Source: Pseudomonas sp. MH9.2
Lineage (GTDB): Bacteria; Pseudomonadota; Gammaproteobacteria; Pseudomonadales; Pseudomonadaceae
Assembly: GCF_034353875.1 (NCBI RefSeq)
Contig: NZ_CP133784.1
Coordinates: 1,178,001-1,242,000 of the forward strand
Direction: 5' to 3'
DNA: 64,000 nt
Shown here piece after piece: positions 37,181-62,571 of this stretch; the stretch's first letter is position 1, and every line of letters begins with the position of its first letter. The position numbers and the translations under genes are program-made. The notes beneath the pieces were generated by a model that worked only from the letters and a program-made list of their open reading frames with translations, had not been told where the DNA came from and did no database searches.

Positions 37181-37260
37181 GATGAGTTCCTCAATGGTTG
37201 GGTACTGCGGCTTCCGGCCCTGGCAACCGCCGGGTGTGGCCTAGAGAACCTTCGTAATAG

Positions 37261-38626: not shown

Positions 38627-38707
38627 CGTGAAATTCCTCACAAAAAAAAGATTGCTGGCTTCCAAAAACGGGCTGCATCCGGCACGCCCTGAAAACCTAC
38701 AAAATGT

Positions 38708-38734
38708 TTATCGGAAAAATTACAAGTGGCTTTA
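38708..38734 (-). promoter_or_regulatory. sigma-28 (FliA) promoter for the second flagellin gene
   Basis: Minus strand: -35 TAAAGCCA, 11 bp spacer, -10 TCCGATAA (7 of 8 against GCCGATAA). It lies 82 bp before the chosen ATG, almost the same distance as for the first flagellin. Confidence 0.83.
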
Positions 38735-41572: not shown

Positions 41573-41800
41573 TATGGCTTCCCAATAATAAACAGCTGAA
41601 TATCACCGTTCTCTGCAATCGAGAGCGCTGGCCAACAGAGATTTCCTGTCGTCCACAAGGAGCGACAGCGAAGGGAATAAGTGGCTATCGCCAGGCCAAT
41701 AAAGAGCCAAGCGCCATCATTCCCTATTAATACAATACAGTGAAGATGCGCGTTATGACTCGCAGGTCACGCTATTTTGCCGAATCAGCCACAGAAGCTG
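41573..41800. other. 228 bp gap between pseI and the KAS III gene
   Basis: I see no conserved ORF and no clear hairpin-T terminator after pseI. A TATTAAT-like -10 near 41726-41734 on the minus strand has no good -35 partner. The KAS III gene probably has a promoter here, but I cannot place it. Confidence 0.4.
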
Positions 41801-45678: not shown

Positions 45679-45715
45679 GCACTACTCTCATCAACGGATC
45701 GCGGCAAGAAGGCAC

Positions 45716-46885: not shown

Positions 46886-47883
46886 GAATGCAGCTCAGCG
46901 TGCAGATCCGCGATCTGACCCACGCTCAAAAACTCTGGATTGGTATCGGAACGATACTCAAAGGTTTCGTCTACTTGAGCACCACACTCACCGAGGCCAT
47001 TGACGGCATAGTCGACGTCGACGTTGGTAAACCGGATCGAGGGCTGGATGGTGTAGTGATCGGAGAACTCCAGGGTCATTCGCGCATCGTCGAGCGGCAC
47101 CATCAACTCATGGAGTTTTTCACCGGGACGAATCCCGACATTTTTGTGCGGTAGATGCTCGGCCATGCCCACGGCCAGATCGATAATCCGGATCGACGGA
47201 ATCTTCGGCACAAACACCTCGCCGCCGTGCATGCGCGCAAAGCTGTCGAGCACGAACTGCACACCATGATCCAGGGTGATCCAGAACCGCGTCATGCGCA
47301 CGTCAGTGATCGGCAACTCCCGCGCACCGTCGCTAATCAATTTACTGAAGAACGGCACTACCGAACCTCGAGAACCCGCCACATTGCCATACCGCACCAC
47401 AGCGAAACGCGTTGGCTGGTCACCGGCAATGTTATTCGCCGCAACGAACAACTTGTCCGACAGCAGCTTGGTTGCGCCATACAAGTTGATCGGGCTGGCC
47501 GCCTTGTCGGTGGACAAGGCGATAACCTTTTTCACCCCATTGTCGATGGCCGCAGCAATAATATTTTCCGCGCCGTTGACGTTGGTGCGGATGCATTCGG
47601 TCGGGTTGTACTCGGCGGCCGGCACCTGCTTCAAGGCTGCCGCATGCACCACATAATCGATCCCGCGCATGGCCAGACGCAGCCGCTCGGCATCGCGCAC
47701 ATCCCCCAGAAAATAACGCATACACGGCGCGTTGAACGTCTGTTGCATCTCGTATTGCTTGAGCTCGTCGCGGGAGAACACCACGACACGCTTGGGCTGA
47801 TACTGCTCAAGCAAACGGCGGATAAAGTTGCGACCGAACGAGCCGGTGCCACCCGAGATAAAAATTGATTTGCCGTTAAACAT
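46882..47883 (-). CDS. pseB: UDP-N-acetylglucosamine 4,6-dehydratase (5-inverting) PseB
   Basis: 333 aa from the ATG at 47883 (MFNGKSIFISGGTGSFG), with AAAGGA upstream; a longer frame reaches into the preceding gene and is not likely used. SDR fold: GGTGSFGRNF nucleotide-binding loop, STDKAASPINLYGATK with the Tyr-x-x-x-Lys pair, and EIFVPKIPSIRI-type segment (EVFVPKIPSIRI). It carries out the first step of pseudaminic acid synthesis. It heads the pse run right after the 976-aa glycosyltransferase. Confidence 0.95.
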   Translation of the reverse strand: MFNGKSIFISGGTGSFGRNFIRRLLEQYQPKRVVVFSRDELKQYEMQQTFNAPCMRYFLGDVRDAERLRLAMRGIDYVVHAAALKQVPAAEYNPTECIRTNVNGAENIIAAAIDNGVKKVIALSTDKAASPINLYGATKLLSDKLFVAANNIAGDQPTRFAVVRYGNVAGSRGSVVPFFSKLISDGARELPITDVRMTRFWITLDHGVQFVLDSFARMHGGEVFVPKIPSIRIIDLAVGMAEHLPHKNVGIRPGEKLHELMVPLDDARMTLEFSDHYTIQPSIRFTNVDVDYAVNGLGECGAQVDETFEYRSDTNPEFLSVGQIADLHAELHS

Positions 47884-47912
47884 GCCGTGAGTCCTTTTCC
47901 TGTCGACCAGAC

Positions 47913-50843
47913 TTAAGCAAGCAACTGCGCCCAGTTCACACTGGTCGGGCTGCCAAGGGTAAAGCCCTTGCCGGTCAAAGCGAGGTTCTTGTTGTACGCC
48001 AAATCGTGCTGGAACGGTCCTGCCCACTTGTCGCGCAGAGCCTCAAGGGCGACTGGCAACGTTGGCAGGGTGCCTGGGTGAATTACTTGCACCTGCGGCG
48101 TCCAGACCGTCAGGTAGCCGGCCTGGGCGATTTTCAAGCACAGATCGACATCACTGAAGGCCTCGGAGAAGCGCTCTTCGTCCAGACCGCCAACGGTTTC
48201 ATACAGTTCTTTACGGACCATCAGGCACGCAGCGGAGACCGCCGAGTAGTTTTGCTCAAGCACCAGACGATGCAAATAACCATTGGCTTTCACAGGTTCG
48301 CCGACAAACGCCGAGCCGGCCGCGTCATGCATGCCAAGAATAAGCCCGGCCTGAGTCACATTACCCTCACGATCAACCAGCTTTGGCCCTACCACGCCGA
48401 CTTCCGGACGCTGCGCCTGATTGAGCAACGTCTCGATCCAGTTCGGGTTGACCATCTCGCTGTCGACCGCCAGCAAGATCAGGTATTCACCCTGCGCCTG
48501 CTGACAGGCTGCATTGTAAAGCGCGGACGTACTGAGGCTTTGCTTGGATCGCAACACCCGCACCTTGCCGGTTTTTTGCTCCTGGGCGTCAAGCCAGGCC
48601 GAGACCGCCGAGGATTGACTGTGGTTGTCGGCGATCAGCACTTCATAGCGCAGGTAGCGTGTTCTTTGCAGGACGCTGTCCAGACAACGTTCCAGCAGTG
48701 GGAGGTTGTCCTGACTCGGCACGATGATCGACACCAGCGGACGCTCAGTGTGGCGATAATCAATCTGCCAGGTACCGGGCGTCGCCGAACTGATTTGCGC
48801 CTTATAACCACGGTTCGCAAGATGCCGAATCAACGCCAGGCGCTCATGGGGATTTTCCTCTAGAACCGGCGCCTGGCAGATGAGTAACGGCTCATCCAGA
48901 TGAGCCAGCCAGGCCATACCGCCTTGCTCAATCATCCGCAGCAGCAAATCAAATTCAAGTGCCTTACTGAAGTCCGCTGAGTAACCACCCGCTTCCACCA
49001 GTACATCGCGACGGATCAGCCAGTGTCGTGCCATCAGCGTCGGCAGGCTTTGCAACAAGTCGAGGTTGAAGCCTGGGCGGAACACATCGATCAGTGCGCC
49101 GTTGGGCTGTCGGTGAATTTCATCCGCAGCCACCGCGCGGCATTCGGGGGCCGCCAGCAGTTCCAGGCTGGCGCGCAACAAACCGCTGGCAGTGAACTGG
49201 TCTCCTGCCTCAGCCAGAAGCATCCAGTCGCAGGACGATTGGCGAGCCACTTGATTCAGCTTGTCTATGTAGTTGCCTGCGGTGACCTTGACAAAGTGCA
49301 GGACGTTTTGCGCAGTGGTAGCAGACTGCGGCTCACCGGTAGTGAACACCACAATTTTGAATTTTTTGCAGTATCCCTCTAACAGACTGTCGAGGGTAAC
49401 TTGCAGTTTTTCGACGTTATTATCGAGGTCCAGTAACAAAATACCGAACTGCGGACCTCCTTCATGGACCGCCAGATGCCCTGTAATCGACTCCAGTTCT
49501 TCGGCATTCGGACGTCGCGCTTCCAACCACTTGAGCAAGCGACCCGAGAGCATATTGTCGAATGTTTGACGGTAGTCAGAAGGCGATACTGCATCCAGGC
49601 GCTGAGCCCAGTCGAGCATCAGTTGGGCCTCATCCTGCTCACCAATATTTTCAAGCTGTTGCGCCAGCTGCTTGACCACTCGCATATTGAACGGATTGCA
49701 GTCCTGCGCCTGCCACAGACGATCGACAATGCTCTCGGCGATATCATTGTTGTGAGGTCGCAGCAAATCTTCTTGCCGAGTCCATACGCCTTCAAGCGCC
49801 TGAAGCTGTACACGGCCAGCCGGCATGGCGTGGAGCAAAAACTCGAACCGGGTCAACTGATCGAAAAACGCCTGGTTGTAGAACGGCATTTCCACATATT
49901 GCTTGGGCCCGAAACGTCGCACCGGCTCCGCATGAGCGGCTGTCCATGTGGACTCGAAAATCAGCTCGGCCGCCAACGCATTGCCCGTACGCAAACTGGC
50001 GGTCATCGCCGCAAAACTCTCGAGCGCAAACTGCTTCGCCTGCTCATGGTCGAGGTCTTTGATGCCCGTGGGCAGCGATGCCAGGAATTCAGCAAACGCC
50101 TCGCGCTCGGCCACTGATTTGGAGTCGGTATAACAGAGTGAGGTATACACCTCAGTGTTATGGTCGGAATGAATGTAATTGATCTCACGCACAACATACG
50201 GAATCGGCAGAATCCGCGCCTTGGCGCGTGCCAGCATGTAGTACACGTGGCCGACTTCCTGCCACTGAAAGATAGTGCCTTCCGGCATGACGGCATACCA
50301 GTCGCGCAACAGTGCAGTGCGGTGAACGGCATAGAAAGGCGGGATGTACTGGCCCATGTAGTCAAGCACACGGTCCTGAGCGCGTTCGGACGAGTAGTCT
50401 TCACAGACCTTTTTGTCACGTCGGTAATAGCTCACGCTATTGGCCAGGGTCAGGTACATCAGGCAATAGCCGTGACACATCCCATAGTCCTGGTTCGCCT
50501 CCAGAAACGCTACCGAATCGCAGAGCGCGTCATGCACGATGAAATCATCGTCCGCAGCGAACACCATGTAAGGCGTGGTCACTTGCTCGACGCCGTAGGC
50601 CAGTTTGGCCTGAATCCCCCAGTAGCCGAACTGTGGAAGATGCCGATAGTCGACCGACGCTAAATGCCCTGCTATCCCCTCGGATGGCTGGATTGACGAA
50701 TCCAGTACCAGAATCTTGCAAGGCAGCGAGCTGTAAAACTGCACAGCTCTGCGCAAAAAGGCCGGCCGGTTGTGGGTAATCAGCACCACTGTCAGCAGCT
50801 CACTCAGAGGTAACGCGTGTTCAGAACCATACTTGCCTTGCAT
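47913..50843 (-). CDS. large two-module flagellin glycosyltransferase
   Basis: 976 aa from the ATG at 50843 (MQGKYGSEHAL), behind GGGGAAAG. N-terminal GT2-like domain of the TIGR00180 type (~15-240: LTVVLITHNRPAFLRRAVQFY, DDDFIVHDALCDSV); a helical middle (~250-450); a degenerate glycosyltransferase-like segment (~455-680); a C-terminal GT-A domain (~700-935: RPLVSIIVPSQDNLPLLERCLDSVL, GEYLILLAVDSEM, GGLDEERFSEAFSDVDLCLKI). Its second half is clearly related to the 1195-aa enzyme at 57275-60862. Genes of this size between flgL and fliC in P. syringae (Fgt1/Fgt2) and P. aeruginosa (FgtA) put glycans on flagellin. Confidence 0.88.
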   Translation of the reverse strand: MQGKYGSEHALPLSELLTVVLITHNRPAFLRRAVQFYSSLPCKILVLDSSIQPSEGIAGHLASVDYRHLPQFGYWGIQAKLAYGVEQVTTPYMVFAADDDFIVHDALCDSVAFLEANQDYGMCHGYCLMYLTLANSVSYYRRDKKVCEDYSSERAQDRVLDYMGQYIPPFYAVHRTALLRDWYAVMPEGTIFQWQEVGHVYYMLARAKARILPIPYVVREINYIHSDHNTEVYTSLCYTDSKSVAEREAFAEFLASLPTGIKDLDHEQAKQFALESFAAMTASLRTGNALAAELIFESTWTAAHAEPVRRFGPKQYVEMPFYNQAFFDQLTRFEFLLHAMPAGRVQLQALEGVWTRQEDLLRPHNNDIAESIVDRLWQAQDCNPFNMRVVKQLAQQLENIGEQDEAQLMLDWAQRLDAVSPSDYRQTFDNMLSGRLLKWLEARRPNAEELESITGHLAVHEGGPQFGILLLDLDNNVEKLQVTLDSLLEGYCKKFKIVVFTTGEPQSATTAQNVLHFVKVTAGNYIDKLNQVARQSSCDWMLLAEAGDQFTASGLLRASLELLAAPECRAVAADEIHRQPNGALIDVFRPGFNLDLLQSLPTLMARHWLIRRDVLVEAGGYSADFSKALEFDLLLRMIEQGGMAWLAHLDEPLLICQAPVLEENPHERLALIRHLANRGYKAQISSATPGTWQIDYRHTERPLVSIIVPSQDNLPLLERCLDSVLQRTRYLRYEVLIADNHSQSSAVSAWLDAQEQKTGKVRVLRSKQSLSTSALYNAACQQAQGEYLILLAVDSEMVNPNWIETLLNQAQRPEVGVVGPKLVDREGNVTQAGLILGMHDAAGSAFVGEPVKANGYLHRLVLEQNYSAVSAACLMVRKELYETVGGLDEERFSEAFSDVDLCLKIAQAGYLTVWTPQVQVIHPGTLPTLPVALEALRDKWAGPFQHDLAYNKNLALTGKGFTLGSPTSVNWAQLLA

Positions 50844-50898
50844 AACTTTCCCCACACCCGGCGAATCGCAAAAAAATACTCAACGATGATGTTGCGGC

Positions 50899-51627
50899 TT
50901 AACCAACCCGTCGCAGATAACCATCCGGCGCGACGGTGATCAGCAATTTGCTGTGGATCGCGGAATCGATCTCGAAATCGCGATTTTCTTTCAAATAAGC
51001 CCAGACTGCAGTTTTCGGGTTATCGCCTTTGCCCCACGGACGATCTGGAAAGGCGTCTTCGGGCATATCTTCGACCACAGTGTCCATGACCACGCAATAG
51101 CTGCCGACCGAAACCAGCGGCGCGTATAGACGCAGTTCCTCAAGAACATGTTCGTGGGTGTGGTTGGAGTCGAGCACTACCAAGACTTTCTTACCGGCGA
51201 TGCGCGCCCGCACTTGATCGACAATCGTCGGATCGATACTAGACCCCTGGATCATATGAATCCGATGGCTCATCGGATGCGCTTCAATCGCCTCACGGTT
51301 GTGCTGGCGGATATCGATATCGACACCCACCACTTCACCGTGTCCGATCAATTCAAGCATCGATGCATAAAACACCAGGGAGCCGCCGTGGGCGATTCCG
51401 GTTTCAATAATTACATCAGGCCGCTGCGACCAAATGATTTCCTGCATGGCGATCATATCCTGGGGAAATTGAATGATCGGCCGCCCCATCCAGCTGAAGT
51501 TGTAGGTGTACTTGTGTTTTGCCGTCGTACCTACCCAGCCCAGAGAAGTGGCTTGAAGCTCTTTGTCCTGCTCCAGTCCTTCGATATTTTGTTTTACTTC
51601 TTCACGAAACAACTCATGAGGATTCAT
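50899..51627 (-). CDS. CmcI-like SAM-dependent methyltransferase
   Basis: 242 aa. Cephalosporin-hydroxylase (CmcI)/rhamnosyl O-methyltransferase family: IIQFPQDMIAMQEIIWSQRPDVIIETGIAHGGSLVFYASMLE (~50-90) holds the SAM loop (ETGIAHGGS), then VVGVDIDIR, VLVVLDSNHTHEHVLEELRLYAPLV and DTVVEDMP with likely metal ligands. Members methylate sugar hydroxyls or act on antibiotics. In this cassette an O-methylation of the glycan is the likely job; 2-O-methyl groups occur on P. syringae flagellin viosamine. It follows the acyltransferase by 29 bp. Confidence 0.8.
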   Translation of the reverse strand: MNPHELFREEVKQNIEGLEQDKELQATSLGWVGTTAKHKYTYNFSWMGRPIIQFPQDMIAMQEIIWSQRPDVIIETGIAHGGSLVFYASMLELIGHGEVVGVDIDIRQHNREAIEAHPMSHRIHMIQGSSIDPTIVDQVRARIAGKKVLVVLDSNHTHEHVLEELRLYAPLVSVGSYCVVMDTVVEDMPEDAFPDRPWGKGDNPKTAVWAYLKENRDFEIDSAIHSKLLITVAPDGYLRRVG

Positions 51628-51656
51628 AGGAAACTCTCCGAAAAATAGGGGCGGCT

Positions 51657-52322
51657 TTACTTGAAAACCCGGCCATCCTGATAGGAAACAGCATTCGACC
51701 TGATGATTCTGGCGGGATTACCCACCACCACTGCATAGTCAGGAACGTCTTGGGTGACGACCGCCCCGGCGCCAATAGTGACCCAACGACCAATGCGCAA
51801 ACGGGGCAAAATGGTCGCATTGATACCGATGAAGGCACCGTCTCCGATCTCGACACAGCCGGCGATACAGACCCCAGGCGCCATGAACACTGAATGACCA
51901 ATCCGGCCTTCATGCCCAATCACGCTTCCTGCACTGATACTGGTGTTGTCACCCAACGCGACGTCGGCCTGCATGATCACGCCCTCCTGCAGATAACAGC
52001 CAACGCCCATTCGGACCATCGTCAGATCAATGCCAGGATGCACAAAGTTACCCAATGTTCCGCCGGCCTCGACGATCTGGCAGGTTGTCTCGTAGCGAAG
52101 CTCGGTAGAGCCGGTAATCAGGTTGACGAACAGGGTGTCCGGCCCCTTCAGATCGGCCACACGATCAGTACCACCAACCACTGGAACACCAAAAAAATCA
52201 GCGCCCTGTTTGGCCGGATTATTGTCCAGAAACAAAAACTCGACGTTCGGGTTCGCGCGCTGCACCGAACGAATCATGCGTACGGCCTCAGGATTCGCCG
52301 CACCCAACAAGTAAATATTCAC
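51657..52322 (-). CDS. PglD/NeuD-like sugar-nucleotide N-acyltransferase
   Basis: 221 aa. N-terminal PglD-type Rossmann-like domain (~1-75: IYLLGAANPEAVRMIRS, FLDNNPAKQG) and C-terminal left-handed beta-helix of hexapeptide repeats (~90-205: GCYLQEGVIMQADVALGDNTSISAGSVIGHEGRIGHSVFMAPGVCIAG), with the general-base His in VIGHEGRIGHS. Such enzymes acylate a 4-amino group on a nucleotide-linked sugar. Straight after a DegT aminotransferase with a 4 bp overlap, it most likely acylates that enzyme's product. The acyl donor could be acetyl-CoA or the product of the island's KAS III. Confidence 0.86.
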   Translation of the reverse strand: MNIYLLGAANPEAVRMIRSVQRANPNVEFLFLDNNPAKQGADFFGVPVVGGTDRVADLKGPDTLFVNLITGSTELRYETTCQIVEAGGTLGNFVHPGIDLTMVRMGVGCYLQEGVIMQADVALGDNTSISAGSVIGHEGRIGHSVFMAPGVCIAGCVEIGDGAFIGINATILPRLRIGRWVTIGAGAVVTQDVPDYAVVVGNPARIIRSNAVSYQDGRVFK

Positions 52323-53446
52323 AGCAGCCCCAGCCCCCTGCTTGCGCAGACAGCGCGAACCACCGCAATGACCCGCTGCTGATCCGAGTCAGTCATATCG
52401 TGATAGCTCGGCAGATTGATCGCACGCTCCGACAGTGAAAAAGCCACCGGCGTATCGACATCCATCGCGCTGAACATCGGCAGCGACGACAATGGCCAGA
52501 AGAACACTCGCGCGTCGATATCAGCGGTTTTGAAAGCCTCGATCAAGGTGTCGCGAGTAATCCCGGTGCTCTCTTCAAACACCAACGTCGGCATCCAGTA
52601 GCCGTTGCGTGAGTGATCCGGCTGCGGGTTCATTGAAATACCCGGAATCTCCAGCAGAGCACTGGCGTAGTTGGCGAATATGGCGCGCTTGCGCTCAATC
52701 AGATCGTTGACCCGTTCAATCTGAGCACAGCCGATGGCGGCCTGCAGGTTGCTCATCTTGTATTTAAATCCAATGAAATCTGGCCAGAACTGACGCGTAC
52801 TGCCGTTCACCCGACCATGATTGGACAAGGTCAGAACCCGCTCGTACACGGATCTGTCCGACGTCACAAACATACCGCCTTCACCGGTGGTGAGGGTCTT
52901 GGTGCCGTGAAAGGAGAACGCCCCAAAAGTCCCCAGCGAACCGGCAGGCTTGGCGCGCCACTGGGAACCGATAGCTTCGGCGGCATCTTCGATCACTGCA
53001 ATGCCGAACTCGCGGCCGATCGCCAGTAACGCGTCCATGTCGCACAGATTGCCGTAGAGATGCACCGCGACAATGGCTTTGGTACGAGGGGTGATGGCTT
53101 GCCGGACTTTTTCCGGATCCAGGCACCAACTGTCCGGCGATACGTCGACAAACACTGGGGTAGCGCCAAGGTAGGTAATCGGCGCCGCAGAAGCGATCCA
53201 GTTGGTGTTGCCCAGAATCACTTCATCGCCCGACCCGATCTCGAGTGCCGCCATCCCCATGTGCAAGGCACCGGTGCAGCTTGAAGTTGCTATGGCGTAA
53301 GGCACGCCCATATGCTCGGCAAAGGCCTTCTCGAAACGGGTGATGTATTCATAGCAGCGCTCGCCCCAGCCGTTCTGTACTGCATCCAGTACATAGGATG
53401 CTTCCAGCTCACCCACACTCGGTTTGGTGTAATGAATTCTGCTCAT
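52319..53446 (-). CDS. DegT/DnrJ/EryC1 sugar aminotransferase
   Basis: 375 aa from the ATG at 53446 (MSRIHYTKPSVGELE). PLP-dependent: IEDAAEAIGS and Schiff-base Lys183 in FSFHGTKTLTTGEGGMF. Closer to VioA/RfbE-type 4-keto sugar aminotransferases than to PseC. It follows CDP-glucose 4,6-dehydratase, an epimerase and a C-methyltransferase, so it most likely puts an amino group at C-4 of a CDP-4-keto-6-deoxy sugar. There is no E1/RfbH dehydrase, so removal of the 3-OH is not predicted. Overlaps neighbours by 4 bp at both ends. Confidence 0.88.
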   Translation of the reverse strand: MSRIHYTKPSVGELEASYVLDAVQNGWGERCYEYITRFEKAFAEHMGVPYAIATSSCTGALHMGMAALEIGSGDEVILGNTNWIASAAPITYLGATPVFVDVSPDSWCLDPEKVRQAITPRTKAIVAVHLYGNLCDMDALLAIGREFGIAVIEDAAEAIGSQWRAKPAGSLGTFGAFSFHGTKTLTTGEGGMFVTSDRSVYERVLTLSNHGRVNGSTRQFWPDFIGFKYKMSNLQAAIGCAQIERVNDLIERKRAIFANYASALLEIPGISMNPQPDHSRNGYWMPTLVFEESTGITRDTLIEAFKTADIDARVFFWPLSSLPMFSAMDVDTPVAFSLSERAINLPSYHDMTDSDQQRVIAVVRAVCASRGLGLL

Positions 53447-54669
53447 CGGTAGCTCAACTCCGGAACCGCAACGACAAAACGACCACCCCACGTGCTCACG
53501 CAGGCGTACTGCTGAGTGATTTCATCCAGCAGATTCCATGGCAACACCAATACGTAATCCGGTTTTTCTTTCTCGATATGATCGGGAGAGACCACAGGAA
53601 TGCGACTGCCCGGCAAGAACTTGCCCTGCTTATGCGGGTTGGCATCCGCGACCCAGGCCAGCAGATCAGGTTTGACCCCGGCATAGTTGAGCAAGGTATT
53701 GCCTTTGGCAGCGGCACCATAGCCGACCACGCGCTTGCCTTCGGCTTTGGCCTGCAACAGGAAGCGCAGCAGTTCATGCTTGATGCGTTCGGCGGCCGGA
53801 GCCAGCGTTGCGTAGAACCCGGGGGTTTTCACCCCGGCGATCAGCTCGACATCCAGCACATGCTGCACGGCCGGTTGCAGCGCACGGCGCACGCCATCAG
53901 CGCGCTGGACGAAGACCCGCAGCGAGCCGCCATGGGTCGGCAGTTCGCTGACATCGAAGACTTCCAGGCCATTGCGTTCGCACAAACGCTGCACGGCCGT
54001 CAGCGACAGATAAGAATAATGCTCGTGGTAGAGGGTATCGAACTGAGCCCCCGCCATCAGCGTCAGCAGGTGCGGGAACTCGAAGGTTGCGACACCGGTG
54101 GACTTCAACAACGTAGCAAAGCCGCTCAGGAAGTCATTGATGTCCGGGACATGCGCCAACACATTGTTGGCCGCCATCAGGTCCGCCGCCCAGCCCTCTT
54201 CAAGCAAATGCAAGGCGGTCTCTCGACCAAAGAACAGCTCGCGAATCTCCAGCCCCTTTTCCCGCGCTGCCTGAGCCGTGCTGTGGGTCGGCTCGACGCC
54301 GAGGCAGGCGATGCCGCGTTTGGCCACGTATTGCAGCAGGTAACCGTCGTTGGCGGCGATTTCCACCACCCGACTGTCAGTCGTCAGGCCAAAGCGCTCG
54401 ACCATCTCCGCGACATAGCGCTCGGCATGAGCCAGCCAGGTGCTGGAATAGGAACTGAAGTAGGCATAGTCGGCGTCGAACAGGCTGTCGGCGCGGGTGT
54501 AGTCCTCGGTCTGGACCAGCCAGCACTCCTGACACACCTGCACCTTCAACGGCACCCATTGCTCGGACTGCTCCAGTTGCTCGGCCCGCAAGTACGCATT
54601 GGAGGGCGGCGACGTGCCGAGATCAATCAGCGACAAGGTCAATGGGGTGCCGCAACCTCGGCAGTTCAT
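53443..54669 (-). CDS. sugar-nucleotide C-methyltransferase (TylC3/NovU-type)
   Basis: 408 aa in three parts: N-terminal zinc-binding segment with Cys3, Cys6, Cys46 and Cys49 (NCRGCG and VCQECW); SAM domain (~95-200, VVEIAANDGYLLQYV); C-terminal Rossmann-like domain (~295-405, VVGYGAAAKGNTLLNYAGV). The HEHYSYLS motif (~215-222) matches the catalytic His-Glu-His of TylC3. This architecture is typical of enzymes adding a methyl group to C-3 of a 4-keto-6-deoxyhexose. Here the substrate would be CDP-linked. Overlaps the epimerase gene and the aminotransferase gene by 4 bp each. Confidence 0.87.
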   Translation of the reverse strand: MNCRGCGTPLTLSLIDLGTSPPSNAYLRAEQLEQSEQWVPLKVQVCQECWLVQTEDYTRADSLFDADYAYFSSYSSTWLAHAERYVAEMVERFGLTTDSRVVEIAANDGYLLQYVAKRGIACLGVEPTHSTAQAAREKGLEIRELFFGRETALHLLEEGWAADLMAANNVLAHVPDINDFLSGFATLLKSTGVATFEFPHLLTLMAGAQFDTLYHEHYSYLSLTAVQRLCERNGLEVFDVSELPTHGGSLRVFVQRADGVRRALQPAVQHVLDVELIAGVKTPGFYATLAPAAERIKHELLRFLLQAKAEGKRVVGYGAAAKGNTLLNYAGVKPDLLAWVADANPHKQGKFLPGSRIPVVSPDHIEKEKPDYVLVLPWNLLDEITQQYACVSTWGGRFVVAVPELSYR

Positions 54670-55226
54670 AGACGCACTCCAACGAACTGAGGATCGAGCA
54701 AGGGATGCGAGGCATCCCGTGCTGACAGATTTTTGACAACCAACGGCCAGGCTATCGCCAGCCGGGGGTCTAGTACTGAAAGACCGCCCTCGTGATCCGG
54801 GGCATAGTCGGCACTGTGCAGATAGAGCAGCTCGGCATCGTCGGTCAGGGTCTGAAAACCATGGGCAAAACCTGCCGGAATCAGCAGGCTACGACCATCC
54901 CCTGCGCACAAATGCTCGGCATGCCAGTTCAGGAACGTCTCGGAATCCGGCCGCAGATCCACCGCTACATCCCAGACTTCGCCCCGCAGGCAGGTAATCA
55001 GTTTGGCTTCCGGCTGTTCGGCTTTTTGATAATGCAGGCCGCGCACACTGCCCCGCTCGCGGGTGCAAGAATGGTTGATTTGACGAATATGAAACGACTG
55101 ACCGAAGGCACTCAAACCACCTTCACAGAACAGCCGGGCGAAGTGCCCACGCTGATCCTCATGGCGCTTGTGCTGCACGTTGAACAGTCCGGTCAACGGT
55201 AGCGGGGTTAACAAAAACTCACTCAC
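54666..55226 (-). CDS. RmlC-like 4-keto-6-deoxyhexose 3,5-epimerase
   Basis: 186 aa cupin of the dTDP-4-dehydrorhamnose 3,5-epimerase family: INHSCTRERGSVRGLHYQ with the base His, GEVWDVAVDLRPDSETFLNW, PAGFAHGFQTL, and the Tyr in LHSADYAP. No rmlA, rmlB or rmlD is nearby; the gene overlaps CDP-glucose 4,6-dehydratase by 4 bp, so its substrate is probably a CDP-sugar. It may epimerise C-3, C-5 or both, which decides whether the final sugar is D or L. Confidence 0.87.
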   Translation of the reverse strand: MSEFLLTPLPLTGLFNVQHKRHEDQRGHFARLFCEGGLSAFGQSFHIRQINHSCTRERGSVRGLHYQKAEQPEAKLITCLRGEVWDVAVDLRPDSETFLNWHAEHLCAGDGRSLLIPAGFAHGFQTLTDDAELLYLHSADYAPDHEGGLSVLDPRLAIAWPLVVKNLSARDASHPLLDPQFVGVRL

Positions 55227-56305
55227 AACTGCCCCCGATACAGGTTCAGCTGAGCGAGCGTTACTTCACGCATGTCCTCGCCATTCTTCCAGGCCAAGTG
55301 CCAATCCAGCGTCTGCTCCAGGCATTGCTGCAATGACCAGCGCGGCTGCCACGCCAACAACTGACGGGCGCGGCTGCTGTCCAGACGTAACAAGCCGGCC
55401 TCGTGAAAATCGCTTGGTTCAATACGCAGCCCCGGCGCTTGCGGCCAGCGCTTGGCAAGCAGCTCAACCACCTCGCCGACACTGCACATATCGCTTTCAC
55501 CGGGTCCGAAGTTCCATGCACCGGAGAACTGCGGGCCTTGTTCGTACAGGCCAGCGGCCAATTGCAGGTAGCCCGCCAATGGCTCCAGCGCATGCTGCCA
55601 GGGGCGAACAGCCTGTGGATAGCGCAGGGTCACCGGTTCACCAGCCGACCAGGCCTTGAGCACATCAGGGATCAAACGCTCGGGAGCAAAATCGCCACCA
55701 CCGAGTACGTTACCGGCGCGCGCCGTGGCCAGTGCCAAACCGTGTTCGGCATAACGTTCGGCCGGAAAGAATGAGGCCACATACGATTGTGCGAGCAACT
55801 CGCAGCAGGCCTTGCTGCTGCTGTAGGGATCATGTCCGCCGAGGGGCTCGTTTTCACGATACGGCCACAGCCATTCCTGGTTGGCGTAGACCTTGTCGGT
55901 CGTCACCAGTACGCAAGCACGCACCCCACCGATCTGGCGAATCGCTTCCAGCAGGTTGAGGGTGCCCATGACATTGCTTGAATAGGTGCCAAGCGGGTCG
56001 CGATAGCCTTCACGCACCAGCGGTTGCGCCGCAAGATGCAGGACAATCTCGGGCTGGACCTCTGCGATCAGTTCAAGTAAGGCGCCGAGATCGCGCAAGT
56101 CACCGCGCTGATCATTGATGCCTTCAGTGACCCGAGCCAGTTCGAACAAGCTCGGCTCGGTCGAAGGATCAAGGGCAAAACCACTGACCTCGGCACCGAG
56201 GCTTTTCAACCACAGCGTCAACCAACTGCCCTTGAAACCGGTGTGACCCGTCAGCAGAACCCGCTTGCCGCGCCAGAATTCCAGATTCAGTCCCATTGCT
56301 TCCAT
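55223..56305 (-). CDS. rfbG: CDP-glucose 4,6-dehydratase
   Basis: 360 aa from the ATG at 56305 (MEAMGLNLEFWRGKRVLLTG), after GGGGAGG; ATGs at 56296 and 56326 are alternatives. SDR enzyme with GHTGFKGSWL nucleotide loop, TTDKVYANQEWLWPYRENEPLGGHDPYSSSKACCE (Tyr-x-x-x-Lys pair) and a family-typical C-terminus. It turns CDP-glucose into CDP-4-keto-6-deoxyglucose. Its start lies inside the end of rfbF. Confidence 0.94.
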   Translation of the reverse strand: MEAMGLNLEFWRGKRVLLTGHTGFKGSWLTLWLKSLGAEVSGFALDPSTEPSLFELARVTEGINDQRGDLRDLGALLELIAEVQPEIVLHLAAQPLVREGYRDPLGTYSSNVMGTLNLLEAIRQIGGVRACVLVTTDKVYANQEWLWPYRENEPLGGHDPYSSSKACCELLAQSYVASFFPAERYAEHGLALATARAGNVLGGGDFAPERLIPDVLKAWSAGEPVTLRYPQAVRPWQHALEPLAGYLQLAAGLYEQGPQFSGAWNFGPGESDMCSVGEVVELLAKRWPQAPGLRIEPSDFHEAGLLRLDSSRARQLLAWQPRWSLQQCLEQTLDWHLAWKNGEDMREVTLAQLNLYRGQL

Positions 56306-57060
56306 GGGGCCTCCCCACTTTGCCACAGACTTTCAAGATAATTCTTGTCGCGCAGGGTATCCATCGGGTGCCAGAAACCATCGTGCTGGAACGCCGTCAA
56401 TTGCCCTCGCTCGGCCAGACCGATCAAGGGCTCTGATTCCCAGACCGTCTCATCGCTGTTAATCAGGGATAAAACCTTGGGCGACAACACAAAGAAGCCG
56501 CCATTGATCCAACCACCGTCGCCACGGGGTTTTTCGGTGAACCCGCTGACCAGATTGCCCTCGCGCTCCAGCGCGCCATAACGACCCGGCGGCTGCACTG
56601 CCGTGACGGTGGCCAATTTGCCGTGGGAAAGATGGAAGTCCACCAGTTCGCCAATATTCAGATCGGAAACACCATCGCCATAGGTGAAGCAGAACGCCTC
56701 TTCATTTTCCACGTAACGGCTGGCCCGCAGCAAACGGCCGCCGGTCATGGTGTCCTCACCGGTGTCGATCAGTGTCACCCGCCAGGGTTCGCTATAGTTC
56801 TGATGAACGTCCATGCGGTTGTTACACATGTCGAAGGTAACGTCGGAAGTATGCAGGAAGTAGTTGGCGAAAAAGTCCTTGATCGCGTAGCCCTTGTAGC
56901 CGAGACAGATCACGAAGTCGTGAATTCCGTGAGCGGAATACTGCTTCATGATGTGCCAGAGAATTGGCTTGCCGCCGATCTCAATCATCGGTTTGGGCTT
57001 CAGGTGCGACTCTTCGCTAATGCGCGTGCCCAGGCCACCCGCCAAAATAACTGCCTTCAT
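56287..57060 (-). CDS. rfbF: glucose-1-phosphate cytidylyltransferase
   Basis: 257 aa. Nucleotidyltransferase with MKAVILAGGLGTRISEESHLKPKPMIEIGGKPILWHIMK, the GYKGYAIKDFFANYF segment and FTYGDGVSDLNI that mark the CDP-glucose branch of the family. It makes CDP-glucose from CTP and glucose-1-phosphate and so opens the CDP-sugar cassette. Ribosome site AAAGGGG precedes the ATG. Confidence 0.95.
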   Translation of the reverse strand: MKAVILAGGLGTRISEESHLKPKPMIEIGGKPILWHIMKQYSAHGIHDFVICLGYKGYAIKDFFANYFLHTSDVTFDMCNNRMDVHQNYSEPWRVTLIDTGEDTMTGGRLLRASRYVENEEAFCFTYGDGVSDLNIGELVDFHLSHGKLATVTAVQPPGRYGALEREGNLVSGFTEKPRGDGGWINGGFFVLSPKVLSLINSDETVWESEPLIGLAERGQLTAFQHDGFWHPMDTLRDKNYLESLWQSGEAPWKQWD

Positions 57061-57274: not shown

Positions 57275-60200
57275 TTAATCCGCCAACCAACCATTTTCCC
57301 AATACCGCAAGTTGTCCCCGCGCAGCATGTAATCGCGCAGTACCGTCTCACGCAGCTCATCACCCATACGGTAGCTGGCATCAGGGTCGGCCAGGTGCAT
57401 GCGAATGGCCTGCAGCCATTCCTCTGTGCTGTTGCCGATGACCCGAGTACACGGCAGGTAACCTCGATAGGCGGCGGTGTCGGTGCACACCACCGGATAA
57501 CCGCAAGCGCCATACTCCAGCAAGCGCAGGTTGCTTTTGCAGTCGTTGAAAATATGGAATTCCAGAGGCGCCAGGGCCAGGTCCAGATTCAGGCTGGCCA
57601 GCTTGGCCGGGTAGACACGCATATCGATCACCCCATGGAATTCGTGCAGATAAGGCCGCAACGCTTCCGGGCACATACCGAAAAACACCCAATCCACTTC
57701 ATTGGCCAGCTCGCGAACAACCTCGGCAATGATCTCCAGATCCCCCGAGTGACTGGTGCCACCCCCCCAGCCTACCCGAGGTTTTTTTGACGTCCGGCGC
57801 TGGCTGGACAACCCGGCCCACAAATCCGGCGCCAGCATATTCGGCACGACCCGAATGTCGTGGTGCATGTCCGACAGGGCATTGGCCAGAGGCTGGGTCG
57901 AGACCACGACCCGATCACACAGGCCGATACCGCGCCGAACCAGACGCTCCATATCCGCACCGCCAGGCATATTACGAATGTGCGAATTTTTATGCGGAAC
58001 GCTGATGACATAGTCATCCAGTTCGAAAATACGTAGCGCACGGGAGTAAGTTTTAAGGCTGATGATTTCGCTGATCGGCCCTTCGCTGTAGCGCCCTTGC
58101 AAAATGATAACGTCAGGCGACTGGCGTTCTACCTCTACGATTGATGGCATGTCATAGCTGATCCGCCCGACCGCCCTGCCCGCCGCCTGCAACTCGATAA
58201 GTGGCTGGGTCACACGATAATGCCCAATTGCCGAAGCATTGATTGGCAAGGCAAGGACATTGGGTAACTGGCGATTGGAAAAAGGGTTCCACCCCGTATT
58301 CAAACCGGGCTCCAGGCTAAAGCTTGAATTATTGAGGGCCAGGTTCGGGTTATACGCCGGATCCTTGGCAATAATCGGTAGCCAGCGCAGGTAGAACTTC
58401 TCCTGTTCCTTGGCCCGTCGCTCCTCGATAGTGACATCCCCCGCCGCAACAGGACGCGCGCCCAACGCCAGCTGGGCATGGGGCGTCCAAACGACTAAAT
58501 AGTCCTTTTGGCGCACCCGCAAGCACAGATCCACCGCACTGAAAGTTTGCGCGAAGCTCACCTCATCCAGCCCGCCCACGGCGTCGAATACCTGCTTACG
58601 CACCATCAGACAATCGCCATCGACAGCGCTCAAATCGTGAGCGACTTGCAAGCGTTGCATGTAGCCAGCAGCATGCAGGGGCTCCCCGAAGAACGGGACC
58701 CCGGCCGGACCTTGAAGGCCGAGAATCAGACCCGCATGCACCACACAGCCATCAGGATTGAATAGCTTGGCACCCACCACCCCGACTTCCGGACGCTGCG
58801 CATGGTTGAGCAAAGCATCCAGCCAGTCCGCATTAGTGATCACCGCATAAGGGCTGAGCATCAGCAGGTATTCACCGCGTGCCTGCTGCGCTGCAAAGTT
58901 ACGGATCGCCGCTACGTTGGCCTCCAGCGGATAGTCCAAGACACGCAACCTGTCGCTGCCCAACTGCGCCATGCTAGCCAGCCAGGCGCGGGCCTCGGCA
59001 CCGTCACTGGCATTATCAACGATCAACAGCTCATATTCGCTGTAGGCCGTTTTTTCCAGCAGACTTTCCACACAGCGCTGCAGCACCGCCAGCTGATCCT
59101 TGCTAGAGATGATAATCGACACCAGCGGCCGTCTGGCGTGAAGGTAATCGACCCGATTGAGCAATGGCAGACTGCCGGGCCGAACTTCGTGAGTAATGCC
59201 CATACGCTGCAGATGCGCCGCCAGCACCAGAGGGTTTTGCTCGACCACTTCAGGCAAAGACAGCCACTGGGAAAGGGCGAACGGCGATTCCAGCATAATT
59301 TCGGCGATATGCTCTATGGCCTGAGGACCGTCATTCTCAATCAGACGCCAGAGCAGATCGTGTACACCAAGTTCGCCATAGAGCGGATTGAAGCCACCCA
59401 ACTCGAGAAAGCGCTGGCGCTGGAAGGCTAAATTCCGCCCCACGTAGGGGTAGCTGCGCAGCAAGTCCAGGTTGAAATCAGGTTTGAACACCGGCTCGGC
59501 TGACTCGCCCTCACGCAAGGCACCCTCGTCGCTATAGACGCACAGCGCGCCTGGGGACATGGCAATGCGTTCGGCCAGCACCAGCAACGCCGGCTCTACC
59601 AGACGATCCCCGGCACGCAGCAAATAGAACCAGTGCGCGCCTTCGAGTTGCGACAGGAGCTCATTGAGTTGCTGCTGCCAGTTGTCCTGCAGTGGCAAAC
59701 TGAAGACCCGTTCATCAAGCGAGGCCTCAGTACGAGCGCTGGACAACACCAACACCAGCTCCGGAGGATAGAGCTGCCCGGCAAGGCTCTCCAGGGTGAC
59801 ATCAAGGCCGGCACTGCTGGCCTGCTCATCGATAACAACCGCAACAATTTTCGGCTGCTGCGGCCAGGCGGCAAGGGTGTCCGGCAGTAATTTGCGCTGT
59901 GGTTCAGAAAGCGTACGGCACACCAGCCATTGCGCGTAAAGCTCGGCAAAGCTCTCGCTGGCGACGCCCACCTTCCACGACAAGGTGGATTGTTTGCTGC
60001 CCAACATCCGGTTCAGCGCCAATTCTTCCCAGTCTCGCGACAAGTCGCCCGCTTGCTTCAACGGCACATAACGAACCCAACCCTTGGCCGGTGCTGGCTC
60101 ACCGCTACGCGCCTCAAGCATTTGTACCAGCCACTGCATTTCGGTCGCAGCCGCATCTCTCATCGGCTGCTGCCGACTCAGACGGCCCGGGTATAGGCGC

Positions 60201-60862
60201 TCGACACTCAAAATCAGGTTCAGCGAAACAATGTTTCCGCGACGCAACAGGCAAATGTACAACGCGAAATCGAGCATAGCGGCAAAACCATGGCCGGACT
60301 GAGTCAAGGCCGGCAAAAACTCCAAAACATCAAGACGACGCAGAAGGGCACTGCTGAAGCCACCCAGAAAGTTGAGGGGGAATGTCTCGAAAATCGACAG
60401 TAAATCCTCCCCCTTGAACAACCCATCGGTGGGCGCCAGCGGTGAGTTCTCCAGGCGTGGAGGCAGTTGAATATCGTCGGCATCCCAGAACAACCGCTGG
60501 GCCAACACCAAGTTGACATCCGCGTGTTCGATGAACACTTGCGCCTGACGTTCAATGCTCGCTGGAAACAGCTGATCATCGTCACACAGAAACTTGATGA
60601 ACTCGCCGCGCGCCTCTCCCAGGCCAGCCTGTAGGTTGCCGACAAACCCCAAATGCTGCGGATTTCGCACGTAGCGCAAAGAGACGGTAGGGCTTCCCTC
60701 CAATGACTCGACGATACCCTCGATCTCATCACCGCAGCTGTCGTCACAGACAATGATTTCCAGGTTGCCGTAGCTTTGGTTCAAAGCGCTGACTAATGCT
60801 TTTTTAAAAAAACGCGGGTTGAAAGCAGGGATGACAATACTGACGAGAGGAACTGGATTCAC
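57275..60862 (-). CDS. large three-module flagellin glycosyltransferase
   Basis: 1195 aa. N-terminal GT2 domain (~5-230: PLVSIVIPAFNPRFFKKALVSALNQSYG, FLCDDDQLFP); degenerate GT-like segment (~335-560); second GT2 domain (~577-800: RPLVSIIISSKDQLAVLQRCVESLL, GEYLLMLSPYAVI, FSAVDLCLRV); C-terminal GT4-like domain (~870-1195: LPINASAIGHYRVTQPLIEL, VGWGGGTSHSGDLEIIAEVVREL, LRLLEYGACGYPVVCTD). Large multidomain enzymes next to flgL are known flagellin glycosyltransferases in P. syringae and P. aeruginosa. Three possible active sites suggest it could build a short chain. It follows flgL by 116 bp. Confidence 0.88.
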   Translation of the reverse strand: MNPVPLVSIVIPAFNPRFFKKALVSALNQSYGNLEIIVCDDSCGDEIEGIVESLEGSPTVSLRYVRNPQHLGFVGNLQAGLGEARGEFIKFLCDDDQLFPASIERQAQVFIEHADVNLVLAQRLFWDADDIQLPPRLENSPLAPTDGLFKGEDLLSIFETFPLNFLGGFSSALLRRLDVLEFLPALTQSGHGFAAMLDFALYICLLRRGNIVSLNLILSVERLYPGRLSRQQPMRDAAATEMQWLVQMLEARSGEPAPAKGWVRYVPLKQAGDLSRDWEELALNRMLGSKQSTLSWKVGVASESFAELYAQWLVCRTLSEPQRKLLPDTLAAWPQQPKIVAVVIDEQASSAGLDVTLESLAGQLYPPELVLVLSSARTEASLDERVFSLPLQDNWQQQLNELLSQLEGAHWFYLLRAGDRLVEPALLVLAERIAMSPGALCVYSDEGALREGESAEPVFKPDFNLDLLRSYPYVGRNLAFQRQRFLELGGFNPLYGELGVHDLLWRLIENDGPQAIEHIAEIMLESPFALSQWLSLPEVVEQNPLVLAAHLQRMGITHEVRPGSLPLLNRVDYLHARRPLVSIIISSKDQLAVLQRCVESLLEKTAYSEYELLIVDNASDGAEARAWLASMAQLGSDRLRVLDYPLEANVAAIRNFAAQQARGEYLLMLSPYAVITNADWLDALLNHAQRPEVGVVGAKLFNPDGCVVHAGLILGLQGPAGVPFFGEPLHAAGYMQRLQVAHDLSAVDGDCLMVRKQVFDAVGGLDEVSFAQTFSAVDLCLRVRQKDYLVVWTPHAQLALGARPVAAGDVTIEERRAKEQEKFYLRWLPIIAKDPAYNPNLALNNSSFSLEPGLNTGWNPFSNRQLPNVLALPINASAIGHYRVTQPLIELQAAGRAVGRISYDMPSIVEVERQSPDVIILQGRYSEGPISEIISLKTYSRALRIFELDDYVISVPHKNSHIRNMPGGADMERLVRRGIGLCDRVVVSTQPLANALSDMHHDIRVVPNMLAPDLWAGLSSQRRTSKKPRVGWGGGTSHSGDLEIIAEVVRELANEVDWVFFGMCPEALRPYLHEFHGVIDMRVYPAKLASLNLDLALAPLEFHIFNDCKSNLRLLEYGACGYPVVCTDTAAYRGYLPCTRVIGNSTEEWLQAIRMHLADPDASYRMGDELRETVLRDYMLRGDNLRYWENGWLAD

Positions 60863-60978: not shown

Positions 60979-62571
60979 TTAAATTTTGCTGAACAGGTTC
61001 AATTGGGAGACCTGGGTAAAGACCAATTGCAAAGCCTGCAACATGGTTTTCTGCATCGTCAGACGGGCGATAGCGTCTACCGGGTCGGAAGCAGTGATCG
61101 CCGACTGATTCGTGGAATTGGATGCCTGCAGGCTGTCATTCGTGACGCCTTGACTAGTCGCCGCGTTTTGACGCGCGCCACCGGAGCTAATCGCCGTACT
61201 TATCTGCTCGGTGCCACTGGTCAGGTTGCCCAACGCAGAATCCAGTGCACCGCTCAATTTCTGCATGGCAGCCGGGTTGCCGTCGGCTGGCGTGTTCAGC
61301 GCGGTAATCACTGACGTCAGCGTGTTCAGAATATTCTGAGTCTGATGGGTATTGGCCTGGACCACGAATTGATCGCCTGCCGCTGGCGTGCCACTCAGCG
61401 TGAAGTTGACGCCGGACGCATTTGCAGTAGAGCCGCTCAAACTACCGCTGGAAACCGGCGTACTGCTGGCGGTAATGGGTGATGCATAGAGATCATAGTT
61501 AGTAGCGCTGCTGAACTTGAGAATCGCCCCGCCCGCTGGAAAACTGTTGTTATACGCGGTCATGTCCGAGGCTGTAGTACCCACTGATGCAGCAGTAATT
61601 GTTGCGGCAGAAGGATTACCAGCGCTACGCGACGTACTGATACTGCTCGGCGTAGAAGCCAACTGGAAGCTGTGCCCCGCAACAGCAGCATCTGCGGTGG
61701 CGGTGGTTGCCCGTTCGGCATCCGTCAGGTTGATGTTCAAATTCAAATTGACGCCGCGAAAACTGACAGTCTGATCCGAAGCATTTACCGAACTGAATGC
61801 ACCCGCCTGACTGGCTTCAGCTGTTACATCGGCACCCGCCGCATCTGTGATCTTCAACTGCGAGCTGCTGAGGAAAGCCACGGTGTAGGGCTGACCACCC
61901 ACAAACTTGGAATTGTAGGTTGTATTGGACCCCACAATGCCACCCGACAAAGCAACCTTGCCATCGTTCACAGCAGGCGACGTCAGACTGCTTGACGTGC
62001 GCGTGGTATTGATCGCCTGCTCGAAAGCATCCCAGCCCGTGGTATTGCTCGCCATAGAGAGCCCGTCGCCGATGGCCAGGTTTACCGAGGTCTGATCACC
62101 GCTATAGCTGTAGGTACCGTCACTGTTCAACGCATACGGTGGCGTCGTGGACTTGGAGCCGGAGAACAGATACTGGCCGTTGGCGTCCTGACTGCCCATC
62201 AACCCCACTATCTGAGCCTTGAGCTGAGTCAGCTCAGCAGCGTTGGCTTTACGGTCGGCATCTGTAAACGTCCCGTTACCCGCCTTGATCACCAATTCCT
62301 TGGCAGTCTGCAATGCATCAGTGATGCTGCTCAGTGCCGTTTCGGCCTGGGTCATGTTGGAGTTTACGGTGCTAATGTTGGTCTTGTACTGGTCGAGCAT
62401 CGAGCTTTGTTGCGCGAGCTGAAGCACACGTGCCGCACCGACAGGATCATCGCCAGCGGTATTGAGCTTGACCTGACTGGAAACCTCATTACCGGTCGTG
62501 ATCACGTTGTTGTAAGTACGCTGGTAGTTCGTAGCGCTGGCTTCGTAAAACTGGGCAGTGGAAATACGCAT
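60979..62571 (-). CDS. flgL: hook-filament junction protein FlgL
   Basis: 530 aa. Flagellin-like N-terminus (MRISTAQFYEASATNYQRTYNNVITTGNEVSSQVKLNTAGDDPVGAARVLQLAQQ) and C-terminus (DPVDAIARLTMQKTMLQALQLVFTQVSQLNLFSKI). The middle (~130-420) is long and rich in Ser, Thr, Ala and Gly. Enteric FlgL is about 317 aa, so this one carries a 200-residue extra surface domain, as other fluorescent pseudomonads do. It follows flgK by 13 bp. Confidence 0.94.
   Translation of the reverse strand: MRISTAQFYEASATNYQRTYNNVITTGNEVSSQVKLNTAGDDPVGAARVLQLAQQSSMLDQYKTNISTVNSNMTQAETALSSITDALQTAKELVIKAGNGTFTDADRKANAAELTQLKAQIVGLMGSQDANGQYLFSGSKSTTPPYALNSDGTYSYSGDQTSVNLAIGDGLSMASNTTGWDAFEQAINTTRTSSSLTSPAVNDGKVALSGGIVGSNTTYNSKFVGGQPYTVAFLSSSQLKITDAAGADVTAEASQAGAFSSVNASDQTVSFRGVNLNLNINLTDAERATTATADAAVAGHSFQLASTPSSISTSRSAGNPSAATITAASVGTTASDMTAYNNSFPAGGAILKFSSATNYDLYASPITASSTPVSSGSLSGSTANASGVNFTLSGTPAAGDQFVVQANTHQTQNILNTLTSVITALNTPADGNPAAMQKLSGALDSALGNLTSGTEQISTAISSGGARQNAATSQGVTNDSLQASNSTNQSAITASDPVDAIARLTMQKTMLQALQLVFTQVSQLNLFSKI

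Follow-up and report, generated by a model that had tools for sequence, protein, structure and literature searches.

Which sugar is made by the seven genes that Pseudomonas sp. MH9.2 carries between its flagellar genes flgL and fliC, and to what is that sugar attached? The genes lie on the minus strand of the window, a 64,000-nt stretch of contig NZ_CP133784.1 to whose coordinates all positions refer, and the genome is a single contig of 5.58 Mb. A sequence-only reading of this DNA had predicted a cassette for a CDP-linked, branched and N-acylated aminodideoxyhexose destined for flagellin, and the analysis reported here leads us to conclude that the cassette probably makes one CDP-activated branched amino sugar which is used on flagellin. 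As that reading had it, the open reading frames for rfbF, rfbG, an rmlC-like gene, cmt, degT, a pglD-like gene and a cmcI-like gene are all present in one direction and overlap at five of their six junctions, by 19 bp between rfbF and rfbG (using the ATG start of rfbG) and by 4 bp at the next four, with a 29-bp gap between pglD and cmcI. The seven genes are as follows.

56287..57060, minus strand: rfbF/ddhA, putative glucose-1-phosphate cytidylyltransferase giving CDP-glucose (TIGR02623, 460 bits; cut-off 300)
55223..56305, minus strand: rfbG/ddhB, putative CDP-glucose 4,6-dehydratase giving CDP-4-keto-6-deoxyglucose (TIGR02622, 478 bits; cut-off 278)
54666..55226, minus strand: RmlC-like protein, predicted 3,5- or 5-epimerase leading from the D to the L series (PF00908, 188 bits)
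53443..54669, minus strand: cmt, predicted NDP-4-ketohexose 3-C-methyltransferase of the TylC3/TcaB9/KijD1 type (PF08421, PF13489, PF08484)
52319..53446, minus strand: degT, predicted DegT-family C-4 aminotransferase, part of a replaceable module (PF01041)
51657..52322, minus strand: pglD-like gene, putative N-acyltransferase of the PglD/PerB type, part of the same replaceable module (TIGR03570, 158.3 bits, just under the cut-off of 160.8)
50899..51627, minus strand: cmcI-like gene, predicted RMNT_CmcI sugar O-methyltransferase, proposed to methylate O-2 (PF04989, 323 bits)

The family assignments made earlier were confirmed, with TIGR02623 and TIGR02622 above their cut-offs and PF00908, PF08421 with PF08484, PF01041, hexapeptide and PF04989 domains matched. 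A cytidylyltransferase and a 4,6-dehydratase that both exceed curated cut-offs indicate a CDP-6-deoxyhexose pathway; rfbF is the sole match in a search of the window genome, and the next best match of rfbG there is only 28% identical. RfbG, read from the ATG at 56305 (the first GTG is at 56326), carries TDK at residue 136 and YSSSK at 161, which fits the CDP-glucose dehydratase signature [ST]DKxnYx3K given in a passage of PMC8987622. The nearest solved relative of the RmlC-like protein is 1dzr RmlC, and its H65, Y135 and Y141 are present in 81 of 81 aligned rows; the passage of PMC8184846 on two RmlC homologs of P. putida has no bearing on CDP sugars. The gene cmt, present as one copy in the window genome, has 4rv9 D-mycarose 3-C-methyltransferase, 5t64 and TcaB9 as its best solved relatives. 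The zinc domain PF08421, the C-terminal domain PF08484, four cysteines (3, 6, 46 and 49) and a YHEHYSY motif beginning at 214 place it with TylC3 and TcaB9. The cysteine set and motif on which the sequence-only reading had relied hold throughout, C3, C6, C46, C49, Y70, H173, Y214, E216 and H217 being invariant in all 81 rows, and we take Y70, H173, Y214, E216 and H217 to be the catalytic positions of TcaB9. The domain set, aligned cysteines and catalytic motif are those of TylC3, TcaB9 and KijD1, whereas these enzymes reportedly use dTDP-linked substrates for antibiotic products, and here the substrate would be CDP-linked and the product a surface glycan.

DegT (ATG at 53446; a longer GTG frame reaches 53491) has the perosamine synthetase 3bn1 as its best solved relative, and the pglD-like protein, whose His137 aligns with a column that is Asn in the variant 4eaa, has the perosamine N-acetyltransferase 4ea7. 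Because these two relatives form a synthetase/N-acetyltransferase pair, we read the two genes as predicted C-4 amination and acylation. The perosamine pathway shares this sequence of amination and N-acylation, although its sugar is reportedly GDP-linked, of the D series and unbranched. In E1 (RfbH) 3-dehydrases the lysine of the pyridoxal phosphate (PLP) site is replaced by His. DegT carries this lysine (Lys183) and reaches only 164 bits against the RfbH model (cut-off 423), and 3-deoxygenation of the E1/RfbH type was therefore rejected, in agreement with the earlier statement that no E1 dehydrase is present; neither an RfbH-type E1 nor an E3 reductase, as a CDP-3,6-dideoxyhexose pathway has them, is found in the cassette. 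The PLP lysine occurs in 77 of 77 aligned rows, which include PseC paralogues besides degT-type loci. The list of open reading frames also bore out the absence of a ketoreductase from the cassette. The PF04989 family, to which the last gene belongs, covers rhamnosyl O-methyltransferases and CmcI.

In the proposed pathway, RfbF would form CDP-glucose and RfbG would convert it to CDP-4-keto-6-deoxyglucose, which the RmlC-like enzyme would epimerise into the L series. Cmt would then methylate C-3, adjacent to the 4-ketone, DegT would aminate C-4, the PglD-like enzyme would acylate the amine and the RMNT_CmcI enzyme would methylate O-2, a site that we chose because it is the only free secondary hydroxyl left. 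The predicted product is CDP-4-acylamido-4,6-dideoxy-3-C-methyl-2-O-methyl-L-hexose, of the N-acylkansosamine or 4-amino-vinelose type, and one of two flanking glycosyltransferases, GT1195 or GT980, would attach the sugar to flagellin, where it may cap rhamnose. Its outline is that of the sequence-only reading, which had named CDP-4-acylamido-4,6-dideoxy-3-C-methyl-hexose, perhaps O-methylated; the L-configuration was added by us, as was the 2-O-methyl, for which we drew on the rhamnosyl O-methyltransferases in PF04989 and on the C-2 hydroxyl. By gene content the cassette holds the set that we ourselves list for a vinelose- or kansosamine-type sugar, namely an epimerase, a C-3 methyltransferase, an O-methyltransferase and, for C-4, either a reductase or an aminotransferase with an acyltransferase.

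The comparison of gene order with other genomes that the earlier note had proposed was run as a named-genome scan, in which 348 cmt relatives were found and the best 80, all Pseudomonas with cmt 83-89% identical, were kept. The order rfbF-rfbG-rmlC-cmt-cmcI-GT980 is kept in all 80, so the arrangement is not due to chance. The slot between cmt and cmcI is filled by degT and pglD in 27 of the 80 and by a reductase-like short-chain dehydrogenase/reductase (SDR) gene in the other 53, of which 41 have a second methyltransferase and 12 do not. P. jessenii DSM 17150 (L054) and P. lini DSM 16768 (L004) are among the degT-type relatives. In one degT-type locus (L077) the degT match falls into two pieces, the best covering 53% of the length, and the gene may be broken. 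The SDR enzyme would act as a reductase at C-4, probably leaving a hydroxyl instead of an amine; the one scanned, from L078, is an extended SDR without an equivalog match over cut-off. This exchange of degT and pglD for a reductase at the same slot, together with the families, supports the chemical logic put forward earlier (CDP-glucose, 4-keto-6-deoxy sugar, C-3 methyl, C-4 amine, N-acyl). The cmcI gene follows the C-4 type, its identity to the window copy being 85-92% in the 27 degT-type and 68-73% in the 53 reductase-type relatives, and on its tree of 81 rows the C-4 type changes once, the split running exactly along type. The other cassette trees show 6 (rfbF), 18 (rfbG), 18 (rmlC) and 7 (cmt) changes, and the flank trees 14 (GT1195) and 9 (GT980) and, on fewer rows, 19 (pseC), 16 (pseF) and 15 (flgL); 200 label shuffles, which ignore kinship, gave 16-27 changes on the cmcI tree and 16-28 across the five cassette trees. 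Genes, families, key residues, position and module exchange are read directly from the DNA, and the first half of the cassette appears as a shared platform, with the C-4 ending as a replaceable module that moves together with an O-methyltransferase of its own.

Of 398 sampled Pseudomonas genomes, the window genome among them, 122 have cmt (E<=1e-80) and 32 have degT (E<=1e-100); all 32 belong to the cmt-bearing 122, and in each of them degT immediately adjoins cmt (gap of -1 to 14 bp). This placement bears on the possibility of two sugars, in which the CDP genes would make a branched neutral or keto sugar and DegT and the PglD-like enzyme would act on another nucleotide sugar, for example pseudaminic acid (Pse) intermediates. 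A Pse pathway does lie directly downstream, and DegT matches the LegC (298.5 against 420 bits) and PseC (257.7 against 423.5) models, in both cases below cut-off. However, the window genome encodes a separate PseC that exceeds its cut-off and every degT match abuts cmt, on which grounds we rejected DegT as part of the adjacent Pse pathway; moreover, a Pseudomonas island termed L100 has degT and pglD with no match to pse genes within the 19 kb read, and all 53 relatives without degT have the reductase-like gene in its slot. Two separate sugars are thus very improbable.

PF04989 was searched in 396 genomes, nearly the same sample, and occurs in 126, of which 114 also have cmt, in 112 cases within 7 kb upstream of the PF04989 gene. 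Twelve genomes have PF04989 without cmt, and of the six read, one has it at a different locus (L154) and five share the same island (L146-L150), rfbF-rfbG-rmlC-reductase-second methyltransferase-cmcI, in which the second methyltransferase gives just a 24-28% cross-match to cmt. These islands probably make unbranched versions of the sugar, and because the reductase-type cassette is otherwise complete in them, the branch methyl seems to be optional too. Eight genomes have cmt without a PF04989 match, six of which were read (L097, L101, L102, L151, L152 and L153); L101 has cmcI by BLAST, so a few of these absences are misses of the genome search.

Several points weigh against the product as drawn. 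The RmlC, NeuD/PglD and rhamnosyl-methyltransferase models all stay under their curated cut-offs, the RmlC-like protein scoring 145 bits against TIGR01221 (just under 155.75), the pglD-like protein falling slightly short of the NeuD/PglD cut-off and the cmcI-like protein reaching 111 bits against the rhamnosyl O-methyltransferase model NF045824, far under 400. The split of cmcI may reflect block exchange, substrate fit or both, and since cmcI is the next gene to the module, mere block exchange may suffice. Substrate and methylation position are not readable from sequence, the product being predicted from gene comparison, and enzyme order, stereochemistry, acyl group, O-methyl position, choice of transferase and flagellin target are what we infer. 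The sugar could accordingly be of the D series or lack the 2-O-methyl, if the RmlC-like enzyme acts at C-3 or C-5 alone, as the low score and the putative 3-epimerases (4hn0) among its solved relatives would allow, or if the methyl set by the CmcI-like enzyme goes to the acyl group or to a different residue, as its NF045824 score would allow. Yet the solved proteins closest to the RmlC-like enzyme bear the name 3,5-epimerase, and in either type of product O-2 is where a free secondary hydroxyl is expected. Furthermore, just 30 of the 114 genomes with cmt and PF04989 have a degT match, from which it follows that the PF04989 enzyme would not need the N-acyl group. We regard a different configuration or decoration as fairly unlikely, and the 2-O-methylated L-sugar remains the predicted product.

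With respect to the target, the order along transcription is flgK, flgL, the 1195-aa glycosyltransferase GT1195, rfbF to cmcI-like, the 980-aa glycosyltransferase GT980, pseB, pseC, a small methyltransferase, pseF, pseGH, pseI, KAS III, a Maf-like gene, two flagellins, fliD and fliS (flgK, flgL, fliD, fliS, pseF and pseI were named by eye from sequence, without a domain scan). Sugar and glycosyltransferase genes lie between flgL and fliC, as expected of a flagellar glycosylation island, and the flanking features are as follows.

60979..62571, minus strand: flgL, hook-associated protein, flagellar flank (assigned from sequence, not scanned)
57275..60862, minus strand: GT1195, multi-domain glycosyltransferase with GT2 twice and Glyco_trans_1_2 (PF00535, PF13524)
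47913..50855, minus strand: GT980, GT2-type glycosyltransferase, candidate transferase (PF00535)
40646..47886, minus strand: second sugar system of pseB, pseC, small methyltransferase, pseF, pseGH, pseI and KAS III (TIGR03589 and TIGR03588 over cut-off; KAS III and pseGH domains)
36332..40564, minus strand: Maf-like MptE/DUF115 protein and two flagellin genes of 385 and 282 aa (PF01973, PF00669, PF00700)

Upstream of the cassette, 64 of the 80 relatives have a flgL match; of the other 16, six have less than 0.8 kb upstream of rfbF and ten show a repeat-protein frame before the fetched stretch ends. GT1195, a candidate transferase for rhamnose and/or the cassette sugar, lies upstream of rfbF in 70 (of the remaining ten, six have less than 0.8 kb upstream and four a repeat-protein frame, then the contig end), and GT980 lies downstream of cmcI in all 80. 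Position thus supports the flagellin destination named by the sequence-only reading, and the clearest case is L100, with the order flgK-flgL-TPR/GT41-rfbF-rfbG-rmlC-cmt-degT-pglD-cmcI-fliC-fliD-fliS. A loose sigma-54 promoter pattern matched no start in the 214-bp gap preceding rfbF.

Cassettes elsewhere count against an exclusive tie to the flagellum. In Pseudomonas, cassettes with cmt 53-54% identical stand at non-flagellar polysaccharide loci; those of L096, L098 and L102 are of the degT type and that of L097 is of the reductase type, and some of the four adjoin genes that by eye resemble flippase and rpsA genes. Two further members of this divergent group, L095 and L101, are degT-type cassettes that adjoin flgL; in both a WbqC-like gene (by eye) replaces pglD, which suggests another N-substituent. 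In a sample of 369 Gammaproteobacteria genomes including the window genome, cmt (E<=1e-80) was found in 37, and the surroundings were fetched for 15 of the 36 others. In two of these 15, L118 and L123, degT, pglD and cmcI follow cmt at non-flagellar polysaccharide loci, L118 having the seven-gene order beside a flippase-like gene (by eye); in six, an extended-SDR gene stands downstream of cmt (L117 by eye; L120, L121, L122, L124 and L130), and the remaining seven have neither at that place or are incomplete or ambiguous. Because diverged cassettes of the same order occupy other polysaccharide loci, the sugar type is not specific to the flagellum. These loci, and the fact that nucleotide sugars diffuse in the cytosol, would suit a sugar made as proposed and placed on lipopolysaccharide or another surface glycan, its flagellar position being incidental. 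We consider such a target unlikely for the MH9.2 cassette, given flgL and GT980 beside its relatives in the numbers above, the L100 cassette between flgL and fliC in one run with a TPR/GT41 transferase, and a cassette adjoining flagellin in Azotobacter vinelandii. Against flagellin attachment in its simplest form, rmlD has two matches over cut-off in the window genome, so that rhamnose may be the protein-linked sugar and the cassette sugar only a cap.

The Azotobacter cluster lies in genome G056, whose VnfD is identical over 461 aa to PDB 5n6y, an entry that we take to be from A. vinelandii and by which the genome is named here. There, a reductase-type cassette of the order rfbF-rfbG-rmlC-cmt-hexapeptide gene-SDR-PF04989 adjoins a flagellin gene and a TPR/GT41+GT2 transferase, cmt is 61% identical to the window copy, and the single TIGR02623 match over cut-off, single PF04989 match and single cmt match of the genome are all in this flagellin-side cluster; cmt is present in two of the four genomes of the genus tested. 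CDP-vinelose was reportedly described from A. vinelandii as 6-deoxy-3-C-methyl-2-O-methyl-L-talose, and we know of no genes or role assigned to this orphan nucleotide sugar. Its groups can be mapped one by one onto the cluster, which fits CDP-vinelose as reported, and because the sole rfbF over cut-off and the sole cmt and RMNT_CmcI genes of A. vinelandii lie beside flagellin, we propose CDP-vinelose as a flagellin-sugar donor. A literature search that covered few subscription journals found no publication that connects vinelose with these genes. The product predicted for MH9.2 would share with CDP-vinelose, as its structure is reported, the CDP link, the 6-deoxy, 3-C-methyl and 2-O-methyl groups and the L series, and would differ at C-4, where vinelose has a hydroxyl, presumably set by a reductase, and the cassette product an acylamide set by DegT and the PglD-like enzyme. 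The cluster (L093, 5700-9455) additionally encodes PhyH, a TylF-type methyltransferase and a hexapeptide acyltransferase, so the final residue may carry more decoration than vinelose. Tentatively, and just short of calling it probable, we suggest that Pseudomonas and Azotobacter share a CDP-3-C-methyl-6-deoxyhexose flagellar platform in which the C-4 ending, either a reductase or an aminotransferase with an acyltransferase, is swapped in one block together with the O-methyltransferase belonging to it. Much of the genus would then bear flagellins of the vinelose or the N-acylkansosamine type, and CDP-vinelose would be the flagellin donor of A. vinelandii.

The sequence-only reading had taken a CDP-linked branched amino sugar to be new. 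This stands in part: the chemotype is reportedly known from N-acylkansosamine and vinelose, and the cassette is common and found at other polysaccharide loci too; what is added is CDP-linked flagellar use and C-4 module exchange, neither of which was found in the literature searched, mostly without subscription journals. N-acylkansosamine is said to be 4-acylamino-4,6-dideoxy-3-C-methyl-2-O-methyl-L-mannose, a constitution equal to that of the predicted cassette product, although the known sugar belongs to a glycolipid and not to flagellin. It occurs in Mycobacterium kansasii lipooligosaccharide, and among the genes given for the locus in Table 1 of PMC4403928 are those for a glucose-1-phosphate cytidylyltransferase, an epimerase/dehydratase, a rhamnose epimerase and a methyltransferase. 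This gene content hints at a CDP route to kansosamine, a link of our own, since the passages concerned leave the genes unassigned; the word aminotransferase is absent from PMC4403928, whereas the cassette has DegT. A Sinorhizobium gene table lists ddhA and ddhB plus an NDP-hexose 3-C-methyltransferase, and an NMR review (PMC9912281) describes sugars with a 3-C-methyl group as quite uncommon. Among flagellin glycans, a review passage names rhamnose-linked glycans, modified viosamine and nonulosonic acids (PMC3958885). The P. syringae flagellin cap is described in passages of PMC3927599 and PMC3958885 as dTDP-derived N-(3-hydroxy-1-oxobutyl)-2-O-methylviosamine. Like the predicted sugar, it is a 4-N-acylated, 2-O-methylated 4-amino-4,6-dideoxyhexose, with aminotransferase, acyltransferase and methyltransferase in one island and a large transferase (VioT, 1,173 aa); unlike it, viosamine follows a dTDP route, is D-gluco, has no C-methyl branch and has its own acyl-chain genes in a separate island (PMC3927599). 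The viosamine island (dTDP route, vioA, vioB, vioM, vioT, vioS, vioR, acp) does not match the present one, which follows a CDP route and whose seven genes include neither acp nor a gene for an acyl-ACP reductase.

Some neighbouring genes deserve mention. KAS III (40646-41572, minus strand) lies beside the flagellin genes and is retained in degT-type and reductase-type islands alike. It was rejected as a special N-acyl source, since it also occurs in reductase-type islands without a pse match in the fetched stretch (L014, L078, L148 and L099), and its retention there indicates that it is not tied to degT. A small S-adenosylmethionine (SAM) methyltransferase gene between pseC and pseF (45058-45678, minus strand) is matched in part of the relatives only, and the flagellin genes of 385 and 282 aa stand in tandem at 36332-38626 (minus strand). 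In L015, L027, L046, L047, L062 and L075, GT1195 and rfbF are separated by a long gene for a repeat protein (about 1.8-7.4 kb) that looks RTX-like by eye; such a gene also stands upstream of rfbF in L051, L052, L074 and L077, where the stretch ends before GT1195.

If the proposal is correct, CDP-vinelose would gain a gene set and a probable use, and a CDP-derived branched amino sugar would be added to the flagellin glycans. The enzymes would also form a small toolkit for branched amino sugar synthesis. Flagellin glycans affect how hosts recognise bacteria, and a locus that swaps a hydroxyl for an acylamide at one position would offer a simple means of varying a surface epitope.

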